This document shows, one piece after another, positions 28,551-37,726 of a stretch of DNA of 55,997 bases; the stretch's first letter is position 1, and each line of letters starts with the position of its first letter. Below the pieces are notes generated by a model. That model was not told the DNA's origin. It ran no database searches and saw nothing but the letters and a program-made list of their open reading frames with translations. Origin of the DNA: Akkermansia sp. GTDB lineage: Bacteria; Verrucomicrobiota; Verrucomicrobiia; Verrucomicrobiales; Akkermansiaceae. The position numbers and the translations under genes were made by a program. Where the stretch lies: assembly GCA_024405435.1 (NCBI GenBank), contig JAKSOU010000007.1, positions 1 to 55,997 on the forward strand. Direction: 5' to 3'.

Positions 28551-30005
28551 TCAGCGGGAGTAGTTGCCGGGGTCTTCCGTGATGGTGACATCGTGCGGGT
28601 GGCTTTCCTGCAGGCCGCCGGAGGTGATGCGCACAAAGCGTGCGTGCTCCCGCAGGGCCGCCAGGTCCTTGGCGCCCAGGTATCCCATGCCGGAGCGGAT
28701 GCCGCCCACAAGCTGGTAGATGACATCCCCGAGCATGCCCTTGTAGGGCACGCGGGCCTCCACGCCCTCCGCCACCATCTTGCCGCTGGCGTTCTGGCCG
28801 TAGCGGTCGCTGGAGCCGGCGCGCATGGCCCCCAGGGAGCCCATGCCGCGGTACGTCTTGAAGTTCCTGCCCTGGTAGTGCACCACGGCGCCGGGGCTTT
28901 CCTCGCACCCCGCCAGCATGCCGCCCAGCATGATCAGGTCCGCGCCGCCCGCAAGCGCCTTCACCGCATCGCCGGAGTAGCGGATGCCGCCGTCTGCAAT
29001 GAGGGTGACGCCAGCGGGGCGGGTGATTTTCGCCACCTCCTGGATGGCGGTGAACTGGGGCATGCCCACGCCGGAGATGATGCGGGTGGTGCAGATGGAG
29101 CCGGGGCCCACGCCCACCTTGATGGCGCTGGCGCCCGCGGCCACCAGGTCGCGCGCGCCGTCCTGCGTGACCACGTTGCCGGCCACCACGGGCTTGCCCA
29201 GCTCGCGCAGCTTGGCCACCACCTCCAGCACGCGGCTGGTGTGCCCGGTGGCGGCGTCGATGAACAGTGCGTCCGCACCCGCTTCCAGCACGGCCTGCGC
29301 GCGGTCCCAGAACTCCGGGCCCGGGCCCACGGCCGCGCCGCAGCGCAGGCGGCCCAGCTCGTCCTTGGTGGAGTTGAGGAAGGCGTCGCGCTTCTGGATG
29401 TCCGTTTCCGTGATGAGCCCGGCCAGGCAGCCGTTTTCATCCACGAGCGGGAGCTTTTCAATGCGGTTGGAGTAGAGGATCTTGCGGGCCTCCTCCTGCG
29501 TGGTGCCGGGCGTGCCGGTGATGAGCTTCTCGCGCGGCGTCATCACGTCCGCCACGGTCATCTGGCCCAGCTTTTGGCCCTCGAAGAGCCGCATGTCGCG
29601 CCCGGTGATGATGCCCTGCAGCTTGTTGTCCCCGTCCACCACAGGGAAGCCGGAGAACCCGTGCTCGTCCATGATGCGCTTCACCTGCCGCAGCGTCATG
29701 TCGCGCGTCACGGTGATGGGCTTGGTGATGACCGCGTTCTCGAAGCGCTTGACCTTGGCCACCATGGCGGCCTGGTCCTCGATGCGGTTGTTGCGGTGGA
29801 TGACGCCGAGGCCGCCCTCGCGGGCCATGGCGATGGCCATGTCAACCTCGGTCACGGTGTCCATGGGCGCGGAAAGGATTGGAAGGCGCAGCGGGATGCC
29901 GGGGCACAGCTGGGAGCACGGATCGGCTTCGCCGGGAAGGATCGTGCTCAAGCAAGGAAGGAGGAGCACGTCATCAAAAGTGAGTCCAAGTTGAATTTCT
30001 TCCAT
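28551..30005 (-). CDS. guaB: Inosine-5'-monophosphate dehydrogenase
   Basis: 484 aa. It converts IMP to XMP with NAD, the committed step to GTP. The TIM barrel is split by two CBS domains (about residues 95-210) that bind adenine and guanine nucleotides. The catalytic loop is [16 protein letters not shown] with the active cysteine; [14 protein letters not shown] and [10 protein letters not shown] are the phosphate and flap regions. A TATACC box lies 7 nt before the ATG. GuaB supplies the GTP pool on which alarmone synthesis depends, and IMPDH is a known (p)ppGpp target in other bacteria. Confidence 0.97.
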
Positions 30006-30084: not shown

Positions 30085-30453
30085 TCAGGCGGATTTGGTG
30101 TCTTTGGGGCGGGAAAGCGAGATGACGATACCGTTCTCCAGGCTGGCCTTGAACGCCCGCTGGGTCACCTCCACGTATTTCCGGATATTGGCCAGGCTCA
30201 CGCTGACGTTGGGCGTGGATTCTATCTCGGAAATGCGCGGTTGGGACACATCCAGCGCCAACGCCATTTCCTTTTGGGTGATGCCGGATTTTGTGCGCAT
30301 TTCCGCCAGCTTGGCGGCAAGCGTGTATGCCTCGGCCTGTTTCTCGATGTCGCGCCACTCGTCTTCCGACACGATGGCCGGGACGTGCGCCTCCTTCACG
30401 GAACGCGCCCGCATTTGTTTCCGAATGTTGATGGGAAGGTATTTCTTATCCAT
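30085..30453 (-). CDS. HigA-type XRE antitoxin
   Basis: 122 aa. The N-terminal half is charged and helical. The C-terminal half is a helix-turn-helix of the XRE/Cro family: GITQKEMALALDVSQPRISEIES, then VSLANIRKYVEVT. The start MDKKYLPINIRK lies 1 nt after the toxin stop, so translation is coupled. Antitoxins of this type neutralise the toxin and repress the operon. G+C is lower than the neighbours by eye, consistent with mobile acquisition. Confidence 0.85.
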   Translation of the reverse strand: MDKKYLPINIRKQMRARSVKEAHVPAIVSEDEWRDIEKQAEAYTLAAKLAEMRTKSGITQKEMALALDVSQPRISEIESTPNVSVSLANIRKYVEVTQRAFKASLENGIVISLSRPKDTKSA

Positions 30454-30454
30454 A

Positions 30455-30814
30455 TTATTTACCGTTGTTAAGTTGTTTGACGTATTTCTTGCAGTATTCG
30501 TTGTCATCGTGCTGGGTGTGCTTGTCGCCAGCGCAGATGAGGTGGATTTCATGGTCTTGAACGTAGCAGTATAGGTAAAGGCGTGTTTGGGTGGCAGGGC
30601 TGAGCGGTTGCTGTGTGATGGCATGACAGCCCGCGGCTTCCCGATGAACGAATGAGAACTCAACCATGCGCAAAGGATTGTCATGCTCCTGTAGGTTCTG
30701 GTGATACCTCTGCAGGTTGACCAGCATTTGCTCGACCTCCCGGGGATGGCGTTTCATCATCGCCTTTATGTCGCGCTCGTACTGTTTGCTCGGTGTAATG
30801 TACCACTGGCTCAT
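30455..30814 (-). CDS. RelE/HigB-family toxin
   Basis: 119 aa from MSQWYITPSKQYERDIKAMM. The pattern of a basic N-terminal helix pair (KRHPREVEQMLVNLQRYH) followed by beta strands (TRLYLYCYVQDHEIHLICAG) matches the RelE/ParE fold; many members cut mRNA on the ribosome. The toxin precedes the antitoxin, the order typical of HigBA. The catalytic residues are not strictly identifiable, so target and activity are unproven. Confidence 0.8.
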   Translation of the reverse strand: MSQWYITPSKQYERDIKAMMKRHPREVEQMLVNLQRYHQNLQEHDNPLRMVEFSFVHREAAGCHAITQQPLSPATQTRLYLYCYVQDHEIHLICAGDKHTQHDDNEYCKKYVKQLNNGK

Positions 30815-30826
30815 GGGAACGCCCCC

Positions 30827-30856
30827 ATGATACCCCATGGTAACGTTGCATGTCAA
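30827..30856 (-). promoter_or_regulatory. Promoter and likely operator of the toxin-antitoxin pair
   Basis: TTGACA, 18-bp spacer, TATCAT. The -10 region is embedded in CATGGGG direct repeats and followed by CATGGGGGCGTTCCCATG, an imperfect palindrome with 6-bp arms. This layout suits repression by the antitoxin. Confidence 0.65.
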
Positions 30857-30976: not shown

Positions 30977-31375
30977 TCAGGCGATTCTCTTCCGGATGGT
31001 GAGCTTGTTGCAGCCGTTGACGAATTCGTACTCCACGGAGTCCATGAGCTTCTTGCAGAGGAAGATGCCGAGGCCGCCGATGGGGCGGTCCTCCGCAGAG
31101 AGGGTGATGTCCGGGTCCTCCTTGTCCAGGGGGTTGAAGGGCACGCCGGCATCTTGTAGGACGATGCTGAGCACGCCGTCCTTCACGGAGGTGTCGGCCT
31201 CCAGGTATCCTGCGCCGTCGCTGTAGGCGTAGTTGACGATGTTCTCCACGGCTTCCTCCACGGCGAGGCGGAGCTTGAAGAGCAGGCCCTCGTCTGCGGG
31301 CATGTCCTCGGAGCTCATAACGGCTTCGATGATGATGGAGGTAAGTCCCTCAATGGGGTCGAAACGCTTGTGCAT
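30977..31375 (-). CDS. RsbW/SpoIIAB-type anti-sigma factor kinase
   Basis: 132 aa GHKL ATPase domain. The N-box is VEEAVENIVNYAYSDG, the G1 box QDAGVPFNP, and the G2 region RPIGGLGIFLCKKLMDSVEY. Proteins of this family bind a sigma factor and phosphorylate a STAS antagonist on Ser/Thr. It starts 3 nt after the tyrosine phosphatase gene and closes the operon that begins with the STAS protein, so that protein is the natural substrate. No sigma factor gene is adjacent. Confidence 0.9.
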   Translation of the reverse strand: MHKRFDPIEGLTSIIIEAVMSSEDMPADEGLLFKLRLAVEEAVENIVNYAYSDGAGYLEADTSVKDGVLSIVLQDAGVPFNPLDKEDPDITLSAEDRPIGGLGIFLCKKLMDSVEYEFVNGCNKLTIRKRIA

Positions 31376-31378
31376 GGT

Positions 31379-32272
31379 TCAATCGAGGTAAAGGTTTCGC
31401 AGGGTCTGGATATCCTGCTCTGAGAGGTGCATCTGGTTGTGCAGGTAGCTCTGCATGCCGCCGTAGCGGGTATCGATGATATCCAGCGCGTACCGCAGGC
31501 TGGCTGGGTGGATGCCCACCATGGCGATGACGGTGTCCAAATCCTTTCGCGTGGCGCCGGCGGCGCTCATCTTGGAAACCAGGCCGGCGAGGCGCGCCTG
31601 GAGTGCGCGCTGGCTGTAGGCGTGCTCGGCCTCGATGGTGGCGCGGTCCGCCCCCAGCGCGGCGAGCACCAGCACGGTGCCGAACCCGGTGCGGTCCTTG
31701 CCGAAGGTGCAGTGCCAGAGGATGGCGCCGTCATGCGGCTCCAGCAGGGTGTGCAGGAACTTGGAGAACACAACCTGGTTGGCGGGCGTGGTGGCGAATT
31801 CCGAGACGATGACCTTGGCGGCGGCCTGCGTGTCGGGCTTGCGGACAAAGGCGATGAGCTGCTCCCCGGTGGGCGGCTGCGGACCGTTGACGAGGGAGAA
31901 GAACTCCTTCATGTTGTCCATGCGGCCCACGGTGCAGGGGAGCGGCAGGTAGCGTGTTCCGGCGGGCACGCGGTCCGGGCTCATGCCGCGTTCCGGCGCG
32001 GTGCGGAAATCCACCACGGCGGCCAGCTTGCCGAGGCGGCGCAAATCTGCGGCGGTGGCCTTGGAGAGGTTGCCGCTGCGCAGGAGTTTGCCGCTGCGCA
32101 CGGTGCGGCCGTCCGCCATCCGCAGCCCGCCCATGTCCCGCGCGTTGATCACGCCCTCCAGCGCGATGGCCCGCTCTGGCGCATCCGCCGGCACGCCGTG
32201 CCGCGCCGTGCCGCACGCGCAGCACAGCAGCGCGGAAAGGATGATTGGAAGGATGGGGTGCAGGCGTTTCAT
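31379..32272 (-). CDS. Exported tyrosine phosphatase (Y_phosphatase3 family)
   Basis: 297 aa. The N-terminal ILPIILSALLCCACGT is a signal peptide with a cluster of cysteines, suggesting a lipoprotein with an imperfect lipobox. The body starts with the family hallmark LEGVINARDMGGL and continues through LLRSGNLSKAT and VDFRTAPER. The signature loop WHCTFGKDRTG (C-x5-R) gives a cysteine-dependent phosphatase active on phosphotyrosine, or on phosphoinositides in some relatives. It lies 7 nt after the HD-STAS-kinase gene. Export is odd for a member of a cytoplasmic switch operon. Confidence 0.9.
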   Translation of the reverse strand: MKRLHPILPIILSALLCCACGTARHGVPADAPERAIALEGVINARDMGGLRMADGRTVRSGKLLRSGNLSKATAADLRRLGKLAAVVDFRTAPERGMSPDRVPAGTRYLPLPCTVGRMDNMKEFFSLVNGPQPPTGEQLIAFVRKPDTQAAAKVIVSEFATTPANQVVFSKFLHTLLEPHDGAILWHCTFGKDRTGFGTVLVLAALGADRATIEAEHAYSQRALQARLAGLVSKMSAAGATRKDLDTVIAMVGIHPASLRYALDIIDTRYGGMQSYLHNQMHLSEQDIQTLRNLYLD

Positions 32273-32279
32273 GGCGGGG

Positions 32280-33968
32280 TCAGCTCAGGAGGTACTTGTC
32301 GATATACTGCTTGGCGAGGGGGTGGTTGGTGCCGATGGTGTTGAAGTAGACCATCTTGAGGGCGGCGAAGGCGGATGCCTTCTCCTCCACCTCGGCCACC
32401 TGCTCCGGGGTGGTGGCGCCGAAGTACTCGCGCACGAACACGGCCCAGAAGGCATCCATGGCCTTGCGGTCCACGTGGTAGTATTTCTCCACCATGTGGT
32501 CCTCGCTCAGTTTGGTGATGATGTAGAGCATGCCGATGTCGAACCAGGGGTTGCCCCAGCCGAAGTCGCTCATGTCGATGAACAGGTTCTCCTTGCCGTT
32601 GGTGATGACGTTGCCCATGTGCAGGTCTCCGTGCACGCAGGTTTCCGCGGCGGGGATGGCGTTGATGAACGCGTGCACCTTCACCTTGTCCGCCACCTCC
32701 AGCAGGTCGCAGTCGTCCACGAACTTGTGGTAGAGCTCCGCCACGTTCGGGAAGATGGCGGTGTCGCACGGCGTCTCGTGCAGCTTCTTGGTCATGGCGG
32801 AGAAGGTGATGGCCAGCTCCTCCAGGCGCTCCGGCTCCTCGCTCATGATGCGCGCGAAGGAGCGCTTGTTGAGCACGCGCTCGAAGGTGATGCCGTTGCG
32901 CCGGCCATCGTGCACGATATCCCCGCTCATCGGCGTGGGGATGCCCATGATGAACGCGGAGCGCGCGATGCGCTTCTCGCGCTCCACCACGGAGGTCGGC
33001 ATGAAGTCGTAGTACAGCTTCATCATGGAGTCGCCGTCGTTCTTGAAGTAGGAGATGGCGGTGAACCCGTCGCCGGATTCCTTGTAGTCGCTCATGTCTA
33101 CGCGGCGGGGGCTGCGCATGATGCTGATGAAGTTGGCGGCGCCGGTGGTCTCGAAACGCTGCGCCACGTCGCGGGTGGCCTCCACGATGAAGAAGACGAG
33201 CCCGCTCTTGCGCGCGTTGAGCAGGGTGCGGATGGCGGAGTACTTCACGCTGGGCACCTGGGCGAAGTTCAGGGTGTACACGTGCCGGTGCGCCATGTTG
33301 GCCACTATCTTCTGCGCGCCCTCCGCATCCAGCACGCCCTCCACCATGATGATGTCCCCGGGCAGCTCGTCGAACGAGAACCCGCTGGACACGCGGCTGA
33401 ACACGTAGTTCACCAGCTTGGAGAACTCCACGTACGCGGTGGTGTTCTCCAGCCCGGAGAACGCCTTGAGCAGGCCGCGCCAGCGCCACGCGTGCTCGTG
33501 CGGGTCCTTGCAGTGGAACTTCTCCCACGCGTGGTTGCCCTCCTTGGAGAAATCGCGCGCTATGCCGCGCAGGTTGGACAGTTTGTCGCCCATGGCCACA
33601 ATCTTGACCTCCAGCGGGGCGTTGGCCAGGTGGCGCATGGCGGTTTCCTTGCGCGCGTGCCAGGTGTCCTCCGGGGAGGAGCCCTCCACGCGCTTCTCGC
33701 TCTCTGCGTCCACCAGATCCGCCACGCGGTCGCCGAACTCCCGCCGGATGTCCTCCACCGTGGTCGGCGTGTCCTCCACCGTGTCGTGCAGGGCGGCGGC
33801 CGCCAGCATTTCGGGGTCGTTGGTCATGGTGGCCACGATTTCCACGGCCTCCATACAGTGGACGATGTAGGGGAAACCCTTGCCGCGGCGCTCGGTGTTG
33901 GCGTGGGCCTTGACGGCGAAAATCATCGCCTTGTCGAAAAGTGAGGTATCGGTGTATTTGTTAGCCAT
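32280..33968 (-). CDS. HD alarmone-hydrolase / STAS / APH-like kinase fusion
   Basis: 562 aa in three parts. Residues about 10-150 are an HD domain like the hydrolase of RelA/SpoT: H37 in YIVHCMEAVEIV, H61-D62 in LHDTVEDT, and D128 in GDKLSNLR, all expected metal or catalytic positions. Residues about 200-288 look like a STAS domain (GDIIMVEGVLDAEGAQKIV, then VPSVKYSAIRTLL), but the usual phosphorylated serine position looks replaced. Residues about 290-560 are an aminoglycoside-phosphotransferase/choline-kinase fold: K317, HGDLHMGN with D448 and N453, and IDMSDFGWG with D465. The start overlaps the end of the synthetase gene by 8 nt. I know of no characterised protein with this domain order. 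Predicted roles: alarmone degradation, STAS partner binding and phosphorylation of an unknown small molecule or protein. Confidence 0.85.
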   Translation of the reverse strand: MANKYTDTSLFDKAMIFAVKAHANTERRGKGFPYIVHCMEAVEIVATMTNDPEMLAAAALHDTVEDTPTTVEDIRREFGDRVADLVDAESEKRVEGSSPEDTWHARKETAMRHLANAPLEVKIVAMGDKLSNLRGIARDFSKEGNHAWEKFHCKDPHEHAWRWRGLLKAFSGLENTTAYVEFSKLVNYVFSRVSSGFSFDELPGDIIMVEGVLDAEGAQKIVANMAHRHVYTLNFAQVPSVKYSAIRTLLNARKSGLVFFIVEATRDVAQRFETTGAANFISIMRSPRRVDMSDYKESGDGFTAISYFKNDGDSMMKLYYDFMPTSVVEREKRIARSAFIMGIPTPMSGDIVHDGRRNGITFERVLNKRSFARIMSEEPERLEELAITFSAMTKKLHETPCDTAIFPNVAELYHKFVDDCDLLEVADKVKVHAFINAIPAAETCVHGDLHMGNVITNGKENLFIDMSDFGWGNPWFDIGMLYIITKLSEDHMVEKYYHVDRKAMDAFWAVFVREYFGATTPEQVAEVEEKASAFAALKMVYFNTIGTNHPLAKQYIDKYLLS

Positions 33969-35079
33969 GATTCTGTTGTTGGGTTGGCCATTGGAGTTCC
34001 GCGGCCAGCTGGATGATGCGCTGGGCACGGGCTTGGTTGTAGGGGCCGGGGCCTTGGATGGCCTCGAAGAATTGCGCCAGGTCCTTTTCGCCGTACCCGT
34101 TCTGGATGAGGTACGCGATGCAGAGGTCCTGCAGGGCCAGGGAGGATGAGATGATATCCAGGTCTGTGCCGCCGAGCTGGTGCAACGCCAGCTGGTACGC
34201 CGCCTCGGAGTAGTCGTGCTTCAGCTTCTCCACGTCCCCCAGCGTCTTGAACCCGAGCCCCTGCAGCACCTTCAGGTAGCCCAGCGGCGCGTCCTGCATC
34301 ACCTCCGCCTGGTTGATGGCGGCTATGCGGTTGGTGAGCCGCTCGAAGGGGTGGATGGCCAGGTAGCTGCGGAAGGTGTCGCCGTTGAGCCCCACCTCGT
34401 CGAAATTCCCGCTGCTCACCAGCGTCTGCACCCGCCGCCGGTAGTCCGTAATCTGCCGCCGGATGCGGCTGAACTCGTCGTCCGCCAGCTCCAGCATGCC
34501 GGCCAGGCGGGTGAGGTTGCGCAGGTGCTCCACGGGCACCTCCACGCCGGATTTGTAGCCGGTGTCGTGGTTGATGTTGGCCCACACGTGCTGCAGAGCG
34601 GTGCGCATCTGCAGCTCGAAGCGGTACTCGTTGATTTCCGGGTGCGCGGGGTCGTGGTAGAGTTTCCTGGGGATGCGGCAGATGTAGTGGAGCGACATGT
34701 AGCCGAAGCTGTTGAGCTCGTGCATCTTCCTTTTGTCCACGGAGTTTTCGCGGTCGATCTCGAAAAGGTCCTCCATGAGCGCCGCGATCTTGTCCACCTC
34801 GTCGCTGTAGAACGTGATGATGCGCGCGCCCATGATGTCCGTGAGGTCGCCCAGGGTCCTGTACTTGTGGCCCTTGAGCTGGAGCTTGCCCACCAGGCTG
34901 TCCTCGGACTTGATGCGCGCCTCCACGGCGGTGACCAGGATGTTGAAGCGGGAGAGGCACTTTTGCAGCTCGGTGAGCACCACCTCCTTCATGGTGGCGA
35001 ACACAGGCTGCATATCCCGGTATTCCTCCAGGATAAGCTGGCAGTGCAAATCCAGCCCGTGGGTATTGGAATGCTCCAT
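33961..35079 (-). CDS. RelA/SpoT-type (p)ppGpp synthetase
   Basis: 372 aa. Residues about 50-180 form the RelA_SpoT nucleotidyltransferase: RIKSEDSLVGKL, the metal-binding DIMGARIITF, GYMSLHYIC with the guanine-stacking Tyr, and ELQMRTALQHVWANINHDTGYK. A helical C-terminal half of about 190 residues follows, without the HD, TGS or ACT domains of long RSH enzymes. It thus resembles a small alarmone synthetase with an extension. The hydrolase appears to be supplied by the next gene, which overlaps by 8 nt. It starts 22 nt after the STAS gene. No direct activity is proven. Confidence 0.9.
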   Translation of the reverse strand: MEHSNTHGLDLHCQLILEEYRDMQPVFATMKEVVLTELQKCLSRFNILVTAVEARIKSEDSLVGKLQLKGHKYRTLGDLTDIMGARIITFYSDEVDKIAALMEDLFEIDRENSVDKRKMHELNSFGYMSLHYICRIPRKLYHDPAHPEINEYRFELQMRTALQHVWANINHDTGYKSGVEVPVEHLRNLTRLAGMLELADDEFSRIRRQITDYRRRVQTLVSSGNFDEVGLNGDTFRSYLAIHPFERLTNRIAAINQAEVMQDAPLGYLKVLQGLGFKTLGDVEKLKHDYSEAAYQLALHQLGGTDLDIISSSLALQDLCIAYLIQNGYGEKDLAQFFEAIQGPGPYNQARAQRIIQLAAELQWPTQQQNHG

Positions 35080-35101
35080 GGCGGGGATGGCGCGCGGGGC
35101 G

Positions 35102-35404
35102 CTACTGGATGGTGATGATGTTGGAGAAGCCGGTGATGTCGAACACCTCCTTCACGGCGGCGGACATGTTTTTCATCACCAGGGAGCCGCCGTTCTTCAG
35201 CACGCTCTTCTGCAGCATCAGGAAGAGGCGCAGCCCCTGGCTGGAGGTGTATTCCAGCTTCGCGCAGTCCACAATGATTTCCGCCTTGGAAACCTGCATG
35301 AGCGGGGTGATGTCCTCTTGGAACTTGGGGGCGGTGGTGGTGTCCAGGCGTCCCTCGAGCACCACTTCGTATGCGTGTCCTTTTTGGTTGATGGTTACGT
35401 TCAT
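35102..35404 (-). CDS. STAS-domain anti-sigma factor antagonist
   Basis: 100 aa, a lone STAS domain like SpoIIAA or RsbV. It opens MNVTINQKGHAYEVVLEGRL, and the phosphorylation segment is CAKLEYTSSQGLRLFLMLQ with a serine pair one residue before the Gly. The end FDITGFSNIITI is typical. In partner switching, the unphosphorylated form sequesters the anti-sigma kinase. It is the first gene of the operon and has the strongest promoter in the block. Confidence 0.92.
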   Translation of the reverse strand: MNVTINQKGHAYEVVLEGRLDTTTAPKFQEDITPLMQVSKAEIIVDCAKLEYTSSQGLRLFLMLQKSVLKNGGSLVMKNMSAAVKEVFDITGFSNIITIQ

Positions 35405-35428
35405 AGTGTGCCAGTGTCTACCCCTGCA

Positions 35429-35457
35429 TATTACGCCAGCGCGTCATGCAAGTCAAG
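35429..35457 (-). promoter_or_regulatory. Strong promoter of the STAS-alarmone operon
   Basis: TTGACT, 17-bp spacer, TAATAT: five of six matches at each box. The leader to the STAS ATG is about 17 nt with AGGGGT in its 5' part. Confidence 0.8.
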
Positions 35458-35478
35458 CCCCGCATGCGCGCACGCGCG

Positions 35479-36363
35479 TCAGCTTTCCAGGAACATGTCG
35501 CGCAGCTGCCGGATATCGTCCTCGGAAAGCAGGATCTGGTTGAGCAGGTAGTCGTGCAGGGAGCCGTACTCGTGTTCCACCAGTTGCAGGGCCTTGGCGA
35601 AGCGCGGCGTGTTCACGCCCACGAAGGAGAGCAGGGCGTCCAGCGCCGCGGCGTCGCATCCTTCCGCGCGCATTTGCTCGGAGAGGGTGGAGAGCAGCTC
35701 CTCGTAGAAGATGTTGGAGAGGGCGAAATCCTCGATAATCAGCTCCGTGCTTGCGCCGAGCGCGGCCAGCAGGAGCGCGGAGCCGATGCCTGTGCGGTCC
35801 TTCCCCTGGGCGCAGTGCCAGAGCACGGCGCCGTCCGTGGTGGCGAGCACGCGGTTGAAGAAGGTGGTGTACTGCAGCTGGGTGAACTCTGAAAAGAGGA
35901 GCGTGGGGTACATGCCGCGGGCCATGGCCTGGCCCTCGTGGTTGCGCGCCAGCTCCATGAAGATGAAGTTGCTGTCCGCGGCGGCCTTTTCCTTGACGGC
36001 TCGCATCTCGCCGCTGCGGGCGGCGGCGCGTGCCAGCGCGCGGCCCACGGCGCCGGAGAACTCGTCCTTCTCCGGGTCCACGGTGGGCAGCAGGATGTAG
36101 TCCGCCCCCGCCACGGGGCGGTCCGGCGAGCGGTCCACCTCCCCCTTGGTGCGGAAATCCACAATGTGCTGCACGTGGTACACGTTGGCCAGGCGCTCCA
36201 AATCGGCGTCCGTGGCCTTGAAGAGGTTGCCGCCGCGCAGCAGCCTGCCGCGGCGGATGCGGCGGCCGTCGGCCATCACGTAGCCGCCGAGCTCGCGCGC
36301 GTTGGCCACGCCCTGCAGGCCGATGCTCTGCTCCTCAAAGCTGATGCGGGGGGTGGGTTCCAT
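35479..36363 (-). CDS. Cytoplasmic tyrosine phosphatase (Y_phosphatase3 family)
   Basis: 294 aa paralogue of the exported phosphatase 3.2 kb downstream. Shared features: LQGVANARELGGYV, LLRGGNLFKAT, VDFRTKGEVDRSP and the active-site loop WHCAQGKDRTG. Both end in a similar helical region (LLNQILLSEDDIRQL). It lacks the signal peptide, so the pair covers both sides of the membrane. It starts at MEPTPRISFEEQ, 9 nt after a -10 box, and has its own promoter; the STAS operon promoter lies just past its stop. Confidence 0.9.
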   Translation of the reverse strand: MEPTPRISFEEQSIGLQGVANARELGGYVMADGRRIRRGRLLRGGNLFKATDADLERLANVYHVQHIVDFRTKGEVDRSPDRPVAGADYILLPTVDPEKDEFSGAVGRALARAAARSGEMRAVKEKAAADSNFIFMELARNHEGQAMARGMYPTLLFSEFTQLQYTTFFNRVLATTDGAVLWHCAQGKDRTGIGSALLLAALGASTELIIEDFALSNIFYEELLSTLSEQMRAEGCDAAALDALLSFVGVNTPRFAKALQLVEHEYGSLHDYLLNQILLSEDDIRQLRDMFLES

Positions 36364-36372
36364 TCCGCCCGC

Positions 36373-36401
36373 AGCATACGCCGCCAAGCGCCAAAAGTCA
36401 A
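36373..36401 (-). promoter_or_regulatory. Promoter of the cytoplasmic tyrosine phosphatase
   Basis: TTGACT, 17-bp spacer, TATGCT, ending 9 nt before the ATG. The -35 box abuts a 22-bp palindrome upstream. Confidence 0.75.
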
Positions 36402-37186: not shown

Positions 37187-37726
37187 GTGAACGGTCATAC
37201 CAGAAACACGGGCGGCGGTCAACCGCAATCAGCTCTGGCCGGGGTTCCCTTCCGCGTGCTTTTCGTGTGCCTGGGCAACATCTGCCGCTCCCCCGCCGCC
37301 GAGATGATTTTCAACGCCCTGCTGGCGGAGCGCGGGCTGCAGGGGCGTATCCGCTGCGATTCCTGCGGCGTGGCCGCCTACCACGTGGGCCAGAAACCCG
37401 ATTCGCGCATGCTGGCCGCACTCAAGCGCGCCGGCATCCCCTACAACGGCCACCGCGGCCGCCAGTTCTCCCCGGCAGATTTCGACGCCTTCGACCTCAT
37501 CATCCCGCAGGACACCACCAACCGGGAGGACATCCTCTGCCAGGCCCGCAAATCCGAAGACGCGGCCAAGGTGGTGCCCATGAGCCGCTGGTTCCCTGCC
37601 GACACCGGGTTGGACGAGGTGCCGGACCCCTACTACGGCGGCCCGCACGGGTTCGACCTTGTGGTGGAGTTGCTGCGCGCCGCCTGCACCGCGCTGTGCG
37701 AAGACCTGGCAGCGCGCGGCCGGTAG
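37187..37726 (+). CDS. Low-molecular-weight protein tyrosine phosphatase
   Basis: 179 aa. The P-loop VCLGNICRSPAAEM (C-x5-R-S) and the C-terminal DPYYGG with the acid-catalysing Asp are both present. Such enzymes often act on tyrosine kinases of exopolysaccharide export or on phospho-arginine. I chose a GTG start because it is the first start codon after the -10 box; an ATG 21 nt upstream overlaps that box and the queE start. This adds a third tyrosine phosphatase within 6 kb. Confidence 0.88.
   Translation: MNGHTRNTGGGQPQSALAGVPFRVLFVCLGNICRSPAAEMIFNALLAERGLQGRIRCDSCGVAAYHVGQKPDSRMLAALKRAGIPYNGHRGRQFSPADFDAFDLIIPQDTTNREDILCQARKSEDAAKVVPMSRWFPADTGLDEVPDPYYGGPHGFDLVVELLRAACTALCEDLAARGR

Follow-up and report, generated by a model that had tools for sequence, protein, structure and literature searches.

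Sigma factors are the known output of partner switches, along with c-di-GMP synthesis in a handful of systems. In SiaABCD of Pseudomonas aeruginosa, SiaA is the PP2C phosphatase of the switch. In its unphosphorylated form, SiaC binds the diguanylate cyclase SiaD and activates it; phosphorylation of SiaC by SiaB blocks this. HsbD and BgrR are further second-messenger enzymes under partner switches (PMC7647112, PMC8457831). No report linking an alarmone to a partner switch was found in the open-access literature. Within the Verrucomicrobia, RSH proteins were reported in none of the three genomes available to Atkinson et al. in 2011 (PMC3153485).

Here, we describe an operon that combines predicted alarmone enzymes with partner-switching proteins. 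The window (the whole stretch of 55,997 nucleotides that was analysed) is a contig of an Akkermansia MAG, genome G000. Like SiaABCD, the module has a PP2C, a kinase and a STAS-like protein co-encoded with a predicted nucleotide second-messenger synthetase, and it comprises no sigma factor. It differs in its enzymes, which appear to be a small alarmone synthetase and a hydrolase (RelA_SpoT, HD_4), whereas SiaD is a diguanylate cyclase. It also differs in using a true STAS protein with Ser, where SiaC is a DUF1987 protein with Thr, in an additional APH-type kinase and in the PP2C being encoded in trans in Akkermansia. With HsbA-HsbD (P. aeruginosa) and BgrSTUWV (Sinorhizobium), it would share the control of a second-messenger enzyme by the phosphorylation state of a STAS protein; those two systems, as cited in PMC8457831, concern c-di-GMP and comprise no alarmone hydrolase. 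The PP2C, phospho-Ser STAS and HATPase kinase are also those of RsbU-RsbV-RsbW-sigma B in Bacillus, with alarmone enzymes in place of the sigma factor.

Two systems resemble the enzyme part. Treponema denticola has no long RSH and carries a SAS with a helical C-terminal domain (Tde-SAS) and a separate small hydrolase (Tde-SAH), as is the case here. In Tde-SAS, the C-terminal domain brakes the synthetase; unlike in our locus, the genes (TDE1711 and TDE1690) are not adjacent, and no partner switch is reported (PMC10434055). Pairs of a toxSAS and a small-alarmone-hydrolase antitoxin also have adjacent synthetase and hydrolase genes; the module differs from them by its sensory phosphatase, kinase, STAS protein and housekeeping-type promoter.

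Gene arrangement and promoters

The features of the locus are as follows (positions in the window, all on the minus strand, in the direction of transcription).

36373..36401, minus: promoter-like site TTGACT-N17-TATGCT of the upstream phosphatase
35479..36363, minus: upstream tyrosine phosphatase (Y_phosphatase3), HCAQGKDR
35428..35456, minus: operon promoter of sigma-70 type before STAS, TTGACT-N17-TAATAT (sequence motif)
35102..35404, minus: STAS protein of anti-anti-sigma type, 100 aa (Pfam STAS, E 1e-16)
33961..35079, minus: predicted small alarmone synthetase, 372 aa (Pfam RelA_SpoT, E 2e-16)
33994..34413, minus: all-helical C-terminal domain of the synthetase, residues 223-362 (AlphaFold model)
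32280..33968, minus: HD-STAS-APH fusion, 562 aa in a single frame (Pfam, NCBIfam, fold comparison)
33399..33968, minus: HD part of the fusion, residues 1-190, predicted small alarmone hydrolase (HD_4, E 2e-20)
33105..33386, minus: fused STAS domain, about residues 195-288 (weak Pfam STAS, 0.01; fold)
32424..33101, minus: TIGR02172 APH-fold kinase part, motifs HGDLHMGN and IDMSD (NCBIfam, 231.8 bits, cut-off 228.2)
31379..32272, minus: operon tyrosine phosphatase (Y_phosphatase3), intact HCX5R (HCTFGKDR)
30977..31375, minus: RsbW/SpoIIAB-type serine kinase, 132 aa (HATPase_c_2, Pfam E 3e-22)
28551..30005, minus: guaB (IMP dehydrogenase), which directly follows the module in G001, G445 and G236

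The initial annotation had listed six genes on one strand, in the order Y_phosphatase3, STAS, synthetase, HD-STAS-APH fusion, Y_phosphatase3 and RsbW-type kinase, and gene coordinates and Pfam matches bear this out. The gaps it gave are likewise correct: 22 nt between STAS and synthetase, an 8-nt overlap of synthetase and fusion (ATG of the fusion at 33968), 7 nt between fusion and phosphatase and 3 nt between phosphatase and RsbW. Both promoters that it proposed, a near-consensus one before STAS and a separate one for the upstream phosphatase, are present as sequence motifs. As it stated, neither a sigma factor nor a PP2C was found on the window contig.

The synthetase was found at an identity of at least 74% in 5 of 76 Akkermansia genomes (the carriers). 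The order STAS-synthetase-fusion-(phosphatase)-RsbW is conserved among them, with the operon broken by contig ends in G030 and G445. The STAS promoter is kept in all five carriers in the form GCTTGACT-N17-TA[ATG][CT]AT, despite differing upstream genes: the phosphatase and queE in the window, queA in G001 and guaA in G236. Six promoter-like sites were counted, compared with 1.0 +/- 0.9 in shuffled sequence.

We dropped the adjacency to guaA and guaB as a functional link. guaB is not next to the module in G030, and it adjoins guaA in several non-carriers without the module; it is therefore probably context and not part of the module. Between RsbW and guaB, the window has a small protein without a Pfam match (30455-30856, minus), which overlaps an HTH antitoxin-like gene. 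The pair (30085-30856, minus) comes with a strong promoter-like site, TTGACA-18-TATCAT. Since RsbW and guaB are just 78-373 nt apart in the other three carriers that have guaB there, the pair looks like an insertion of toxin-antitoxin type in this genome. A short distance upstream of the operon, on the opposite strand, lies a third phosphatase gene, similar to low-molecular-weight protein tyrosine phosphatases (about 37240-37726, plus; FVCLGNICRSPAAE by eye).

The alarmone enzymes

By domain and motifs, the operon synthetase is a small alarmone synthetase, and its product would be (p)ppGpp. The chain has a RelA_SpoT domain with intact motifs and no HD, TGS or ACT domain. Residues R55/K57/S61, D81, Y127/S129/H131 and E155/Q157/R159 were invariant across six relatives, and the significant relatives in a PDB structure search were all SAS enzymes. 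In the AlphaFold model, the catalytic half was poor (pLDDT <50 over most of it) and the helical C-terminal domain was confident. The latter is a candidate regulatory domain. A TPR or other named fold is not claimed for it because the structure search gave no convincing fold match for residues 223-362.

The N-terminal part of the fusion is an HD_4 fold in which the Rel/RelH residues for metal binding and catalysis are retained. R28, H37, H61, D62, E65, D66, D128 and N132 were invariant, and their spacing (R28-H37-H61D62-E65D66-D128-N132) equals that of RelSeq. Model residues 1-193 resemble small alarmone hydrolases, with Corynebacterium RelH matching at Z 23.7 (1.8 A over 183 residues).

The initial annotation had read the two enzymes as a split long RSH, i.e. 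an ancestral Rel whose two halves, for synthesis and hydrolysis, now lie in separate genes. The two activities do lie side by side, and G000 yielded no long RSH. Each domain is, however, closer to the small single-domain families. The best NCBIfam match of the synthetase was YjbM (E 3e-13, compared with 0.03 for the long family spoT_relA), and the HD part was nearer to small hydrolases (1e-22) than to long Rel (2e-14); neither a TGS nor an ACT domain was reported. Moreover, one of the Bacteroidales carriers, G456, encodes another RelA_SpoT protein in addition to the one in the module; its 695-aa frame scores much higher, as would be expected of a canonical long RSH. A split is thus extremely unlikely, and a small synthetase next to a small hydrolase is the reading we retain.

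A RelA_SpoT domain above the cut-off was found in 15 of 289 Verrucomicrobiota genomes. In three of the four carriers examined (G000, G001 and G445; MAG completeness in the census of carriers 93-99%), the operon synthetase was the only RelA/SpoT-domain protein found. G236 carries a second one in a 355-aa frame (L047, G236:C16:27577-27900). A different protein with a RelA_SpoT domain occurs in another Akkermansia genome, G083, flanked on both sides by genes of unknown function (L040 1132-2085; 318-aa frame, 29% identical).

The STAS and kinase parts of the fusion

The weak Pfam match of the second fusion domain to STAS is, as far as the modelled fold tells, real: model residues 196-285 resemble RsbV (Z 12.3, 1.9 A over 90 residues). 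All five Akkermansia fusions have Tyr at the position of the phosphorylatable Ser. The third part matches APH in Pfam (E 1e-9). No paper on the function of TIGR02172 kinases was found in the literature search, and any role of this kinase in the module is putative. A scan of genome contigs yielded the Akkermansia carriers together with one Bacteroidales MAG and a weak HD match in Sulfurospirillum. In another Verrucomicrobiota genome, G339, there are two matches resembling a STAS-TIGR02172 kinase (L026 2043-8401 and L027 2756-3706), one of them with a response-regulator-PP2C and a STAS-TCAD9 protein in its vicinity. STAS-APH fusions recur there with PP2C phosphatases and without alarmone enzymes.

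Selection was assessed by simple Nei-Gojobori estimates on these GC-rich genes in comparison with G001. The dN/dS was 0.065 for RsbW (97% identical in G001), close to the 0.048 of guaB, 0.09 for the HD part, 0.11 for the catalytic part of the synthetase and 0.16 for the free STAS. RsbW, HD, synthetase and STAS are under purifying selection. The fused STAS evolved fastest (0.66-0.75) and is missing from the Bacteroidales fusions, so it may be decaying.

These values also bear on two related readings in which the switch would be the trigger: a toxic SAS paired with its hydrolase as antitoxin (toxSAS/SAH), or a phage-defence module. The placement of the synthetase beside a small hydrolase is reminiscent of toxSAS-hydrolase pairs, its sequence matches the PADLOC candidate PDC-S33 (3.6e-17), and the distribution in Akkermansia is patchy (5/76). 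The PDC-S33 match is confined to the synthetase domain, though, and the sensory PP2C, the conserved sigma-70 promoter and the purifying selection make such a pair less likely. The neighbours are housekeeping genes (guaB, guaA, queA) and not mobile-element genes, and a search of IMG/VR viral contigs with the fusion found no close relative. We consider toxicity or defence very unlikely.

The switch proteins and a PP2C in trans

Ser55 of the free STAS protein aligns with the phosphosite of RsbV (position of RsbV S56) and is kept in all relatives. The operon RsbW is the sole one found above the Pfam cut-off in G000, and none was found above it in the non-carrier G003.

Away from the operon, the genome encodes a dCache-HAMP-PP2C protein (G000:C72:5829-7727). 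It is 45% identical over the full length to the in-operon PP2C of Bacteroidales, compared with about 27%, over the catalytic region only, for the other Akkermansia PP2Cs. At an identity of at least 62%, its distribution coincides with that of the operon: all five carriers have it, and the 71 other Akkermansia genomes do not; the non-carrier G011 has a 35% paralogue. For independent genomes, such a coincidence would have a probability of 1 in C(76,5) (about 5e-8). That figure overstates the evidence because the genomes are not independent; the five carriers may share a common descent, and the co-occurrence would then not represent five independent events. The presumed STAS phosphatase thus lies inside the operon in Bacteroidales and in trans in Akkermansia. 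With the operon RsbW the sole one in G000 and none in G003, it is plausible from these sequences that the trans PP2C, STAS and RsbW are a cognate set. The earlier argument that output and reset must differ from the Bacillus model for want of a PP2C does not hold.

The best NCBIfam match of the trans PP2C was SiaA (NF038263), at 58.7 bits compared with a cut-off of 700. Because the score is so far below the cut-off, the module is not a member of SiaABCD; by analogy, it would work like it.

A RsbV/RsbW/RsbU set made of STAS, RsbW and PP2C could also be a classical switch, in which RsbW sequesters a sigma factor encoded at another locus, with the alarmone enzymes either simply sharing the transcript or acting back on stress transcription. 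An ECF sigma gene (G000:C107:2445; L134 129-1998) has counterparts in G001 and G236 (75-82% identical); searches of the near non-carriers G007 and G002 did not find it. This contrast is weak, with two to three genomes per side, and the gene adjoins a Ser/Thr-kinase-like gene of its own. Besides RpoD, the sigma factors found in G000 were short and ECF-sized only, and a sigma factor is absent from every module neighbourhood in both phyla. A sigma-factor output is therefore unlikely, and the alarmone enzymes are the output that we favour.

The two tyrosine phosphatases are clear family members (Y_phosphatase3, Pfam E 2e-56 and 3e-52), and the operon one has a signal- or lipoprotein-like stretch at its N-terminus (by eye). 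We rejected them as core parts because they differ from carrier to carrier. The operon of G236 is without a tyrosine phosphatase, and among the Akkermansia carriers, the upstream one lies beside the operon in this genome only. A relative of the latter (41%) lies beside the module, next to the HD gene, in Bacteroidales G701. The tyrosine phosphatases are accessory.

Distribution and descent of the module

Synthetase relatives (E 1e-25) were found in 10 of 393 Bacteroidales genomes, that of L034, a MAG from horse faeces, counted. Seven of the ten have the full switch adjoining, two are without it, and G792 gave a distant match only. The homologous module of these seven genomes comprises STAS, RsbW, synthetase and hydrolase, with a dCache PP2C in 7/7 and an APH kinase in 6/7. 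In L034, the genes form a single run in the order RsbW-PP2C-STAS-lipid kinase-synthetase-HD; the lipid kinase between STAS and synthetase is of YegS/DAGK type (L034 7900-8814). The usual order across Akkermansia and Bacteroidales is STAS-synthetase-HD. Bacteroidales G537, G641, G797 and G796 have an HD-APH fusion. In G701 and G674, HD and APH are separate, and PP2C is fused to RsbW. As the same families stand together in Akkermansia and Bacteroidales, the module is real, crosses phyla and is more than chance. The co-occurrence check (five Akkermansia and seven Bacteroidales) upholds the earlier proposal that alarmone enzymes and partner switch form one conserved module; with the two points on which it failed, that interpretation as a whole is partly supported. 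Most carriers and relatives are MAGs, and a gene scored as absent is only as certain as genome completeness and the sensitivity of Pfam allow.

In the synthetase tree, Akkermansia formed one clade beside Bacteroidales G701 and G674 (92/95 support), among Bacteroidales sequences. The outgroups were long-branched, which leaves the root and the direction of transfer uncertain. From the tree, the module looks to have been exchanged between gut lineages.

Such exchange would also fit co-transcribed neighbours without a physical link, whose common order reflects transfer as one unit. The HD and synthetase pair is also found without the switch: in G742 and G557, synthetase-HD is followed by a cupin-like protein (L078 7829-9828, L079 7898-9897), which is a reduced form of the module. 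This arrangement suggests that the two enzymes can work alone. The distant Bacteroidota synthetases (30-34%) are solo genes with no switch. On the other hand, independent rearrangements and fusions retain the same gene set, and the Akkermansia PP2C has moved away yet still co-occurs with the module. Mere co-transcription is distinctly unlikely.

Proposed mechanism

We consider it probable that the locus is a partner-switching module with a nucleotide alarmone output, in which the sensor PP2C, STAS and RsbW gate the enzymes. Fusions joining its parts (PP2C-RsbW in G701 and G674, HD-APH in four Bacteroidales, HD-STAS-APH in Akkermansia), the conservation across phyla and the carrier-matched PP2C were counted in its favour. 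Upon a ligand or stress signal, the membrane PP2C with its periplasmic dCache sensor would dephosphorylate Ser55 of STAS; rephosphorylation by the RsbW-type kinase would be the reset. STAS, which would be free or bound to RsbW depending on its phosphorylation, would bind the alarmone enzymes. Most likely, unphosphorylated STAS would bind the helical C-terminal domain of the synthetase, a regulated brake as in Tde-SAS, and so turn synthesis on. The HD fusion would degrade the alarmone, and its Ser-less STAS may serve RsbW or STAS as a permanent docking site. The sequences establish the domains and catalytic motifs, the order of the genes, the conservation across phyla and the trans PP2C; we infer every binding step, the direction of the switch, (p)ppGpp as the product and any role of the APH kinase.

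The module may further be an alarmone counterpart of SiaABCD, with an external ligand sensor acting through the partner switch to gate the synthesis and hydrolysis of (p)ppGpp directly; some Rel-less Akkermansia would thus have a transferred, ribosome-independent stringent response. For this wider proposal, we see the balance as even. If it is true, an extracellular sensor would be tied straight to the growth-arrest nucleotide (p)ppGpp, and TIGR02172 kinases and HD-APH fusions would have a likely function. Since Verrucomicrobia were reported without RSH (PMC3153485), the gut Akkermansia carriers would be natural strains with a stringent response that was gained and not inherited, and in these carriers it would rest on one deletable operon.
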